Below are positions 25,066-29,156 of a DNA stretch of 64,000 nt, piece after piece. Made by a program: the position numbers and the translations under genes. The notes beneath the pieces are model-generated. The model was not told where the DNA came from. It saw only the letters and a list, made by a program, of their open reading frames with translations, and made no database searches. The stretch spans positions 1,240,001 to 1,304,000 of the forward strand of contig NZ_JAIOAO010000002.1 in NCBI RefSeq assembly GCF_021190955.1, in the 5' to 3' direction. Each line of letters starts with the position of its first letter. Position 1 is the first letter of the stretch. This DNA is from Parachryseolinea silvisoli (lineage in GTDB: Bacteria > Bacteroidota > Bacteroidia > Cytophagales > Cyclobacteriaceae).

Positions 25066-26295
25066 TTAAGCCACAACTTGTTCTTTCTTTACAGTGCTGG
25101 CGATCGGTGTAAAAGTAGCACCCTGCGCCAGGATAATACCCACACCATCCTGCTGAGACCACTCGCGCAGCTTAGACAGGCGCACTTGCCCAACCATATA
25201 CTGTTTGCCGCTCGCAGCATAACCCGACTGGAACTGCTCAAAATCCTGAATCGAAATTTTGATCGTGTCATCGAAGCTGACGTGTGCATCTACAATGAGG
25301 TCGTTCGAGAACTCGAAGCGATCAGCCTGGTGGAATTTTTTATACTCATAGGCATAGTCATACGACAGCGCGGAGATGTCAGACAATACCGCCGATCCGG
25401 TAGGGTAACTACCAGCGCCCTTGCCGATAAACAATTGTTTTTCAGCGAAGGCACCTTGCACTTGTACGGCATTATACTCGTTGCGTACGGAGGCGAGCGG
25501 GTTAGTGGCTTCTATGAACTGCGGTGCCACGAAACCATATACCTTGTTCTGAATGCGGAACGAACGTGCGATCAATTTGATGAAGTAGCCGTTGTCACGG
25601 GCGAACTTCAGGTCCTGGTCGGAGATCTTATCGATGCCGATGTTGATGATGTCTTCAGGTTTGAGAAACAGGCCAAAGGTGTGGGCAATGGCAATGACCA
25701 GTTTATACTTGGGGTCGTAGCCTTTCACGTCGAGGCTCGGGTCGCTTTCGGCAAAGCCCAGCTCTTGCGCTTTCTTTAGCGCATCGGCGTAGGTCTTCTT
25801 TTCTTCGAAAACTTTCGTGAGGATATAGTTGGTGGAACCGTTGAAGATACCTTCGATGCTGTTCAGCAGATCGTTGTCATAATACTCTTCCAGGTTGCGC
25901 AGGATGGGAATGCTACCGCAGACGGCTCCTTCGTAAAGCACTGGAAGGCCGGTTTGCTTTTGCAGGTTGTAGATTTCCTGCAGGTGTTCGGCCAGCATCT
26001 TTTTGTTGGCAGTGATTACAGCTTTGCCGTTGAGGAGGGCGGTCTTTACTATTTCAAAAGCAGCACGGGCGTCGTCGATGAGCTCGACAACAACATCAAT
26101 CTCGGGATTGTTAAGAATCTCTTCTTTGTCGAAGGTAAAGAAGTCATCGTTTACGGGACGTTCTTTGGTTTTATTTTTAACGCAGACCTTTTTGATCTCG
26201 GCCTCTACACTGCCATGTGTTTCGTTCAGTACGTGATAGAGTCCTTGTCCCACACATCCGAATCCAAACAAACCTAACTTTAGTTTCTTTCTCAT
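25066..26295 (-). CDS. hom: Homoserine dehydrogenase
   Basis: 409 residues. The N-terminal NAD(P)-binding segment LGLFGFGCVGQGLYHVL is a Rossmann GxGxxG variant. VITANKKMLAEH, LYEGAVCGSIPIL, GIFNGSTNYIL and GFAESDPSLDVKGYDPKYK (partly) are the conserved catalytic and homoserine-binding segments. It reduces aspartate semialdehyde to homoserine. It is the monofunctional form, without an aspartokinase domain. Start overlaps the metX stop by four bases (ATGA); it is the last gene of the metY-metX-hom unit, so it gives substrate to the two genes before it. Confidence 0.96.
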   Translation of the reverse strand: MRKKLKLGLFGFGCVGQGLYHVLNETHGSVEAEIKKVCVKNKTKERPVNDDFFTFDKEEILNNPEIDVVVELIDDARAAFEIVKTALLNGKAVITANKKMLAEHLQEIYNLQKQTGLPVLYEGAVCGSIPILRNLEEYYDNDLLNSIEGIFNGSTNYILTKVFEEKKTYADALKKAQELGFAESDPSLDVKGYDPKYKLVIAIAHTFGLFLKPEDIINIGIDKISDQDLKFARDNGYFIKLIARSFRIQNKVYGFVAPQFIEATNPLASVRNEYNAVQVQGAFAEKQLFIGKGAGSYPTGSAVLSDISALSYDYAYEYKKFHQADRFEFSNDLIVDAHVSFDDTIKISIQDFEQFQSGYAASGKQYMVGQVRLSKLREWSQQDGVGIILAQGATFTPIASTVKKEQVVA

Positions 26296-27338
26296 GATAA
26301 TACCGTGCTTAATTGCTTTTGCTGATAAAAGTGTTTTATGACTGAATCCAATTGTTCGAACTCCACCAGGAAGCCGTCGTGTCCATAGAGCGAAGTAAGC
26401 TCAATGTACGTGGCCCCCGGAATGTTAGCGGCCAGGAATTTTTGCTCGTGTACCGGAAAGAGTATATCGGTGTCGATGCCGACTATAAGAGTCCTGGCCT
26501 GGACAGTCTGCAGCGCTGCTTCGATGCTTTCGCGCGTACGGCCTACATTGTGGCTGTCCATCATTTTAGAAAGTGTATAGTACGAAAAGGCATCGAAGCG
26601 ATTCACGAGCTTCTCGCCCTGGTATCGTTGGTACGTGGAGGCGCGAAAGTCGTCGAGCTTATCGTGGTCCTTTTCGATCTGTGTCTGGTTGAATGTTTCG
26701 TAGTAACGATAAGAAAGCATACCGATAGCACGGGCAGCCTTGAGGCCCTGGGCACCGGCGCGTGGATCGTTTTCTTTCCACGTAGGATCGGCTTCGATCG
26801 ACAGGCGCTGTGCTTCGTTAAAGGCAATGCCCCACGGTGAGTGCGCAGCGTTTGTCGCGAGGGCAATAAGATGTTTGAAGACACCGGGTTGCTGAATGGC
26901 CCATTCCAACGCTTGTTGTCCACCGAGAGAGCCGCCGAGCAATGTATGGATACTATCGATCTGTAATTCCCGACGCAGCAGGTCGAAGGCACGCACCGAA
27001 TCGCGGTTCGTCAACGTCGGAAACGCGTGATAAAACGGCTTGCCGGTTTCGGGATTGATCGAAAGTGGGCCGGTAGAGCCATAGCAGCCGCCGAGCATGT
27101 TCGCGCAGATGATGAAATAATGTTTGGGATCGAACGCGCTGCCCTCACGGAACAGGTCGCCCCACCAATCGGTGAAATCAGAACTGCCCGTCAGTGCGTG
27201 ACAAACCCAGACGATGTTGGAACGATCGTGGTTGAGCTTCCCTAATGTGGTATATCGCAGTTGAAAACCTGGCAATACGCCGCCGGCTTCGAGCGGAAAG
27301 GGATGCTGGTGGTGGAATGTATGATCGTGCTTTTGCAT
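26292..27338 (-). CDS. metX: Homoserine O-acetyltransferase
   Basis: 348 residues, alpha/beta-hydrolase fold. VWVCHALTGSSDFTDWW, CANMLGGCYGSTGP and the nucleophile motif GGSLGGQQALEW are typical of MetX; the catalytic Asp and His lie in DTDILFPVHEQ and YGHDGFLVE. It acetylates homoserine for direct sulfhydrylation by MetY. Some family members use succinyl-CoA; the sequence alone does not settle that. Lies 79 bases after metY, with a hairpin between. Confidence 0.95.
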   Translation of the reverse strand: MQKHDHTFHHQHPFPLEAGGVLPGFQLRYTTLGKLNHDRSNIVWVCHALTGSSDFTDWWGDLFREGSAFDPKHYFIICANMLGGCYGSTGPLSINPETGKPFYHAFPTLTNRDSVRAFDLLRRELQIDSIHTLLGGSLGGQQALEWAIQQPGVFKHLIALATNAAHSPWGIAFNEAQRLSIEADPTWKENDPRAGAQGLKAARAIGMLSYRYYETFNQTQIEKDHDKLDDFRASTYQRYQGEKLVNRFDAFSYYTLSKMMDSHNVGRTRESIEAALQTVQARTLIVGIDTDILFPVHEQKFLAANIPGATYIELTSLYGHDGFLVEFEQLDSVIKHFYQQKQLSTVLS

Positions 27339-27417: not shown

Positions 27418-28752
<1,335 letters not shown>

Positions 28753-28840
28753 TTATTCAGTGAATGATTTGTTGTAGAAGTTGCGCGACGTGGACGTAGC
28801 CGTAATCGTACCTGTCACCGGGTAGATCGTACGCTAGTGT

Positions 28841-28907
28841 GTTGCTAATGGCGGTGCGCTGCTAGCAACGACACATACAACAACAGGCGTTGTTGCACAT
28901 ACAACAA
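28841..28907 (-). promoter_or_regulatory. Competing hairpins (attenuator-like) at end of leader ORF
   Basis: On the minus strand, TTGTTG (28907-28902), CAACAA (28895-28890) and TTGTTG (28883-28878) allow two mutually exclusive 6-bp hairpins. GTTGCTA (28869-28863, covering the last codons and stop of the leader) pairs perfectly with TAGCAAC (28847-28841). The position of a ribosome on the Cys codons would decide which forms. No T-rich terminator follows, so the output would be translational or Rho-linked. Confidence 0.5.
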
Positions 28908-29002
28908 ATAATAGAGCTGAATAAAGCAGAGACGTAAGCACGCGGACCCTGAAGAAGGGCCGATCCGGGAAAGATGGTGTTGATGATGCTTTTCATTTTC
29001 AT
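28862..29002 (-). CDS. Cys/Met-rich leader peptide of methionine operon
   Basis: 46 codons, ATG at 29002, TAG at 28864-28862. After MKMKSIINTIFPGSA and a neutral middle it ends in CCMCNNACCCMCRC: eight Cys and two Met in the last 14 residues. Its ATG directly follows the 3' strand of the P1 stem of the SAM-I aptamer, so SAM binding would cover the A-rich bases before the start. A frame this rich in Cys and Met codons just ahead of a sulfur-amino-acid gene is what a ribosome-sensing leader looks like. I do not know a described family; whether it is translated is inferred. Confidence 0.62.
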   Translation of the reverse strand: MKMKSIINTIFPGSALLQGPRAYVSALFSSIICCMCNNACCCMCRC

Positions 29003-29122
29003 CGTTTTATATTTCCCGGCCTGGACCATCCAAGCCGGAGTCAGGATTTAGCACCTTTTCCCTATTGGGAGTGGTTGCTAGCGCTTCTTAGAGCCTGTCT
29101 CTCCGCGCTTCTTTATAAATCG
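29003..29122 (-). promoter_or_regulatory. SAM-I (S-box) riboswitch aptamer
   Basis: The minus strand has the S-box core: GGAGAGAC, AAGAAGC, AGCAACC and GGTGCTAAATCC in order and spacing. P1 is UUUAUA with UAUAAA (plus a flanking CG/CG pair); P2 has AGCGC/GCGCU; P3 is UCCC/GGGA; P4 is a 10-bp stem with one wobble (CCGGCUUGGA with UCCAGGCCGG, loop UGG). Binding S-adenosylmethionine should close P1, which abuts the AUG of the leader peptide, so the switch likely works on translation start. metY lies downstream, as expected. Confidence 0.9.
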
Positions 29123-29156
29123 ATTGGCAAGATGTGCCTATTCGACTTTGATACTA

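Follow-up and report, generated by a model that had tools for sequence, protein, structure and literature searches.

SAM-I (S-box) riboswitches usually act through an expression platform, which is either a terminator or the regulated gene's ribosome-binding site. Ahead of metY in Parachryseolinea silvisoli, within a stretch of 64,000 nucleotides that was analysed as a whole (contig NZ_JAIOAO010000002.1, positions 1,240,001 to 1,304,000; hereafter the window), lies an element that is like other RF00162 members in matching the whole model above the gathering threshold and in preceding methionine and sulfur genes. It departs from the usual members in what its P1 stem adjoins, namely the start of a leader peptide and neither of these two platforms. 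This arrangement raises the question of whether the short frame is a genuine leader, what it would sense, and how the aptamer and the frame could act together on the genes downstream. The elements of the locus, in window coordinates, are as follows.

29004..29121, minus strand: SAM-I (S-box) aptamer (RF00162, 72.4 bits, whole model 1-108)
29114..29121, minus strand: 5' arm of P1, GATTTATA, TTATA type (cmscan alignment and sequence)
29004..29011, minus strand: 3' arm of P1, TATAAAAC, A-rich, about 8-15 nt 5' of the likely leader start at 28996 (cmscan alignment)
28862..28996, minus strand: leader reading frame MKSIINTIFPGSALLQGPRAYVSALFSSIICCMCNNACCCMCRC, 44 codons plus stop (same-position Cys-tailed frames behind 56 of 81 aptamers)
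28865..28906, minus strand: putative regulatory tail, 14 codons abutting the stop, of which 8 encode Cys and 2 Met (sequence; Cys excess in relatives)
28841..28847, minus strand: TAGCAAC, complementary to GTTGCTA (last Cys codon plus stop), 7 bp possible (sequence and alignment)
28797..28836, minus strand: conserved hairpin in the leader-metY interval, loop GTGACA (21-sequence alignment)
27418..28740, minus strand: metY, O-acetylhomoserine/O-acetylserine sulfhydrylase family (TIGR01326, 670 bits, cut-off 495; PF01053)
26292..27338, minus strand: metX, homoserine O-acetyltransferase (NF001209, 332.5, cut-off 331; TIGR01392, 352 where 500 is required)
25066..26295, minus strand: hom, homoserine dehydrogenase (NF004976, 332, cut-off 205; PF00742)

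Aptamer and leader frame at the metY locus

The Rfam cmscan of the window gave an RF00162 match at 29121..29004 on the minus strand, complete over model positions 1-108 and scoring 72.4 bits against a gathering threshold of 44.4, and this match supplies the S-box core in both sequence and structure. The aptamer, which the preliminary description had called from the sequence alone, was thereby confirmed with a covariance search of the Infernal type, and its end was corrected by one base, from 29003 to 29004. No gathering-level Rfam match other than SAM-I was found within the 64-kb window, and with this single match a second aptamer, as a tandem riboswitch would have, is absent. In a single-sequence fold of positions 29000-29125, P1 was lengthened by ATCG/CGAT, which would bring it into contact with the ATG at 29002.

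The short frame had been described as 46 codons starting at that ATG and ending in a Cys/Met-rich tail. The frame, with its stop codon at 28864-28862 (minus strand), was upheld, as was the tail, whose final 14 codons contain 8 Cys and 2 Met and end with CCMCNNACCCMCRC. The start was revised: a second in-frame ATG at 28996 stands 7 nt past P1 and, judged by the place of the start at other loci, is more likely the leader start, giving 44 codons, since the first ATGs of relatives sit mostly 7-11 nt past P1. As had been proposed, metY follows the leader (TIGR01326 match at 28740-27418), and then metX and hom.

In the closest pair of leaders, that of the window and that of locus L038 (genome G002), 11 of 45 codons differ; seven changes are synonymous in sense codons, one exchanges a stop for a stop, and three are replacements, none of which falls within the last 17 codons, the changes in the tail being synonymous only. 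Thus, the equal synonymous and non-synonymous change named beforehand as the outcome that would speak against a leader peptide was not seen, with seven synonymous changes to three replacements. The tails of two genomes of the same genus (G003 and G005, at L043 and L052) read CCCYRAVAANL, and because the last Cys codons are gone there, this loss was counted against a Cys-sensing role of the leader. A search of the own genome for four Cys codons followed by a stop returned 20 matches, none of them leader-like; this pattern is a weak test, as it misses the leader of the window itself and any interrupted tail.

Cys-tailed frames behind the aptamers of relatives

All 129 listed SAM-I aptamers of 59 genomes (the own genome and 58 relatives, 52 of the 59 having at least one) were surveyed, a list from which strict filters may have dropped weak aptamers. 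They were sorted by the 5' arm of P1 into 81 of TTATA type, 42 of TTATC type and 6 of neither, and for each one the first ATG past P1 opening at least 15 codons was chosen blind to content and called Cys-tailed when at least 3 Cys stood among the last 14 codons. Such frames followed 56 of the 81 TTATA-type aptamers, none of the 42 of TTATC type and one of the remaining six; for the TTATA type, the count in 100 dinucleotide shuffles of the DNA past P1 averaged 0.51 and never exceeded 2. The frames of at most 75 codons numbered 71, and 56 of these passed the test for Cys, as compared with seven for Ser, the next residue. Furthermore, an ATG was located 6-12 nt past P1 in 72/81 TTATA-type and 0/42 TTATC-type aptamers, and the start sites carry a signature of A-rich bases at -12 to -14 together with an A-rich second codon. 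On these comparisons of sequence, we regard it as nearly certain that the leader is a reading frame under selection, with a Cys tail and a link to the TTATA-type P1. The comparison likewise backs translation of the leader, selection on its Cys codons (and, more weakly, its Met codons) and a tie between its start and P1, and in this respect the earlier interpretation.

The composition of the leaders was assessed on 105 non-redundant ones, chosen for Cys and not for Met, so that only the Met figure is unselected; three rows of this set (L102, L117 and L128) carry a wrong frame. Cys makes up 40.5% of the tail and 1.7% of the body in these Cys-chosen leaders, and Met 7.6% and 1.5%, respectively; by position, the Cys excess spans the last 7-8 codons in relatives. 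One hallmark of an attenuator, a short leader with the relevant codons near its end, is therefore present, its translation being indicated by selection. The conserved frame and its synonymous change would equally suit a functional small Cys-rich protein, a reading to which we give very little credit, as the body of the peptide is unconserved between groups, leaders range between 15 and 66 codons in length, and at all loci seen the frame accompanies an RNA switch or a sulfur gene. Another possibility is that the tails, nearly pure in Cys and abutting the stop, belong to an arrest or sensor peptide that responds to redox state, sulfide or a metal instead of reporting tRNA charging. We consider this improbable: tail length and residue order are variable, with other residues interspersed, Met is also enriched and has no relation to such thiol chemistry, and the targets are sulfur-assimilation genes. 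That the leader senses the charging of tRNA-Cys is, in our assessment, highly probable.

The Cys tail was missing behind 25 of the 81 TTATA-type aptamers, and because in 16 of these 25 a frame persists, either short and in the customary position or longer, SAM-gated leader translation may serve another use there. In Algoriphagus, Aquiflexum and Belliella, the aptamer is retained, as is a frame at 8-9 nt from P1, and the Cys run is absent; as Algoriphagus-like loci keep the frame and not the run, a SAM-gated leader may work in them without Cys sensing. These Algoriphagus-like loci, in which the short frame stands at the same 8-9 nt from P1, were L078, L080, L085, L090, L095, L099, L105, L107, L112 and L114. 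At L198 (G035), the tail of the first frame past P1 is rich in Met instead of Cys (SMRMSMFS).

A second sample consisted of the 80 loci nearest to the MetY of the window. A leader adjoining P1 was recognized by script at 42 of them, the aptamer was parsed without such a leader at 18, and 20 were unparsed; with six further loci having an adjoining leader (L055, L056, L067, L073, L096 and L111), the count reaches at least 48/80. Cys-rich frames between S-box aptamers and metY, which the preliminary description had suggested looking for in relatives, are thus found. According to the titles of the locus records, the fused leader occurs in Chryseolinea, Chryseosolibacter, Cesiribacter, Pontibacter, Hymenobacter, Marivirga, Mucilaginibacter, Pedobacter, Solitalea and Phaeodactylibacter. 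Among the best-scoring 30 loci of a 118-genome sample of the phylum, no Cys leader adjoining P1 was found; this list is headed by high-scoring aptamers from other groups, and some places of P1 were set by a rough rule, with those of L238, L244, L247, L252, L255 and L258 looking misplaced, so that what can be concluded from this sample is limited to the fused form not being universal.

Terminators, pairing and serial arrangements ahead of metY

No terminator-like site was detected between positions 28600 and 29300 of the window, and intrinsic termination at this metY was rejected on that ground. As a general rule, it was rejected as well, a hairpin followed by TTTT being present after 27 of 105 Cys leaders as compared with 20, 10 and 11 in three shuffles. 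The other hallmark of an attenuator, an intrinsic terminator between leader and gene, is thus absent from the window; clear intrinsic terminators stand behind the Cys leaders of L117, L128, L183 and L192. A hairpin with TTTT within 110 nt past P1 was observed for 4/81 TTATA-type and 5/42 TTATC-type aptamers, and because the TTATC type seldom has one, the missing terminator is not peculiar to the fused form.

Two other elements between the leader and metY were examined. The first, the complement of the last Cys codon and stop at 28841-28847, corresponds to a GCAACA-type segment that is kept in the alignment across the Chryseolinea-like group. Complements of this type follow the Cys codons at 27 of 105 loci, the mean of the shuffles being 9 and their maximum 13, and the energies of duplexes between Cys codons and downstream sequence are slightly better than shuffled ones (mean z -0.56, 101 loci). 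As a switch, this pairing is possible but gained no support, for it displays no covariation and 2530 of 5000 partner swaps do as well. The excess of complements would also be expected if the TGTTGT-rich stretch were an untranslated RNA structure with the Cys codons as a by-product; against this stand the lack of covariation, the free variation of stop codons and third codon positions among leaders, and the finding of the Cys frame at the first usable ATG past P1 in 56/81 cases against 0.51 expected, so that among the readings considered we give this one the least weight.

The second element is the hairpin at 28797-28836, which is not a terminator and whose loop contains a GTGAC that is invariant in the window and 20 Chryseolinea-like relatives. 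In these 21 sequences, 3 of 7 predicted pairs changed on both sides, a count that is too low for the outer stem, as MAFFT put some 3' ends wrongly in the alignment. Its own strands pair better than swapped ones, with 41 of 5000 shuffles equalling it, and the alignment suggests a modest covariation.

Outside the fused form, the same components are found in other arrangements. TTATC-type aptamers with a clear terminator of their own were identified at L076, L077, L081, L083, L086, L093, L125 and L131, and in four of these (L077, L083, L086 and L093) a separate Cys leader lies 275-359 nt after the aptamer and its terminator; at this distance, both inputs are in series yet unfused. These four loci favour an account in which the aptamer and the leader are two independent controls placed side by side, the aptamer acting by its own route and the Cys leader as a separate ribosome-mediated attenuator, with the contact between P1 and the start codon reflecting mere compactness. 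For the fused loci we find this account unlikely, as the spacing between P1 and the ATG is nearly fixed (within 6-12 nt in 72/81) even where the Cys tail is missing, and no other platform is visible, the hairpin with TTTT within 110 nt of P1 being limited to 4/81. The alternative that we prefer, that SAM acts by gating the start of the leader, appears probable.

SAM-I was found by Rfam at 9 of 13 rescanned loci and at none of L082, L102, L117 and L128, the upstream stretch being short in the last. Locus L117 has a Cys leader alone, with a strong terminator, ahead of metY. At L128, positions 537-822 ahead of metY contain two Cys/Met-rich leaders, each with an intrinsic terminator, and the short upstream stretch has no SAM-I match. 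At L192 (G013), upstream of a NIR_SIR gene (719-2167), two Cys leaders, MKFTSRTFSNPLRESLHHISCLCCCCCM and MISYIPEIYGLKNAHCCMCCVCCCML, are placed in series and followed by a strong terminator-like hairpin. These combinations of leader and terminator at L117, L128 and L192 argue that the leaders act by attenuation. Another observation concerns the Cys leaders 5' of metY at L077, L082, L083, L086 and L093, which end in Met-Pro-stop, with the stop inside a hairpin ATGCC-GTAA-GGCAT.

Proposed two-input control and the sulfur regulon

In the mechanism that we propose, bound SAM would keep P1 closed; the A-rich 3' arm of P1, which sits where a Bacteroidota ribosome would bind for initiation on the leader, should then be hidden, and the leader would remain untranslated. 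At low SAM, the leader would be translated, and the speed of the ribosome over the Cys codons of the tail would report the charging of tRNA-Cys, the Met codons probably reporting that of tRNA-Met likewise. A stalled ribosome would alter events in the stretch of about 120 nt between the leader and metY, so that metY-metX-hom would be expressed; with the leader untranslated, or translated freely, their expression would be low. High output would therefore require low SAM together with scarce Cys (or Met). We infer SAM binding, blocked initiation, stalling and the direction of the response, as well as a rise in the expression of metY upon stalling on Cys or Met codons. For the last step at metY, the candidates are Rho-dependent termination, some other form of termination, and translation. 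The full chain, from a SAM-gated leader through the readout of tRNA charging to the control of metY-metX-hom, strikes us as reasonably likely.

The description of a single locus held for that locus and is here widened: the fused module marks a sulfur-acquisition regulon of Bacteroidota, of which the metY locus is one member. In the own genome, three of four SAM-I aptamers have a Cys leader, and these precede metY, an exported-looking protein followed by SusC, SusD and a sulfatase, and a PhyH-type dioxygenase; the fourth, before a homocysteine S-methyltransferase, has none. The operons behind the own-genome leaders include two proteins without a Pfam match, at L260:5276-6256 and L260:3859-4788. 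Targets of Cys leaders in relatives are of the sulfite/nitrite reductase type (L183 and L192) and of the antiporter type (L168), and at L031 a protein with a Pfam OsmC match lies between the Cys leader and metY. OsmC-like genes were placed in this position at L031, L060, L062, L067 and L074, the assignment being Pfam-tested for L031 only. Of the 42 TTATC-type aptamers, 31 stand ahead of metH, as judged by motif. A cystathionine beta-synthase-like protein of the own genome scores just below the family cut-off (506.5 against 510.25 bits), and because of its presence we suggest that homocysteine made by MetY could also feed cysteine. We lean slightly towards a general reading in which a terminator-less SAM-I, having the start codon of a Cys/Met leader as its expression platform, is a fused riboswitch-attenuator that would form an AND gate, requiring both low SAM and little charged tRNA-Cys, over the sulfur-acquisition regulon of Cytophagales, Sphingobacteriales and some Saprospiraceae, with metH under SAM alone.

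Each of the two sensors has known counterparts. Cysteine leader peptides were described in Actinobacteria, where short frames upstream of cys genes have Cys-codon runs close to their stop (Seliverstov et al., 2005; PMC1262725), and the leaders of Mycobacterium smegmatis are said to start leaderless (Canestrari et al., 2020, via PMC9031893; cited in PMC13236596). The leader of the window resembles them in the Cys-codon run near its stop, and the mycobacterial loci likewise have no conserved terminator. It differs from the M. smegmatis leaders, which are described without mention of an aptamer, in sitting behind an aptamer of about 118 nt; as these 118 nt precede the frame, it cannot lie at the 5' end of an RNA that includes the aptamer. 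Another short frame with conserved Cys codons is the uORFC-8-2 motif upstream of cysS in Rhodobacterales, which has been interpreted as ribosome-mediated attenuation (PMC8632094); in the account of this motif, unlike in the leader of the window, two Cys codons lie in the middle of the peptide, an intrinsic terminator follows and no aptamer is mentioned. Attenuation by a leader peptide has also been suspected in Flavobacterium (PMC9723704).

Regarding the combination of inputs, the SAM-I of Xanthomonas campestris is reported to sense uncharged initiator tRNA as well (PMC7270179), so that, as proposed for the present case, a tRNA-related signal forms the second input of a SAM-I element. There, the platform binds tRNA-fMet and frees the Shine-Dalgarno sequence, and the description of this mechanism names no leader peptide, unlike the arrangement proposed here. 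Contiguous or tandem riboswitches, for instance SAM with T-box or cobalamin (PMC12452182), similarly place two-input logic in one mRNA leader; as outlined in that source they consist of two aptamers, whereas here one aptamer is joined to one translated leader. Full-text searches of an open-access portion of PubMed Central, which lacks most subscription papers, gave no description of a SAM riboswitch linked with a Cys leader, and we therefore regard the arrangement as apparently new, a fusion of two sensor types that are each known.

If the proposed control is true, the riboswitch would not act on a gene but would decide whether a second sensor, the translated leader, is made. It would constitute a compact joining of a metabolite signal with a tRNA-charging signal, recurrent before the sulfur genes of a large and little-studied phylum. 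Within one genome, the sulfur-supply genes would be placed under both inputs and the homocysteine methyltransferase under SAM only, a split that suggests a logic in which genes feeding both cysteine and methionine heed both inputs. The type of P1, together with its spacing to the ATG, would then offer a simple predictor of the genes that belong to the sulfur-starvation regulon of Bacteroidota.
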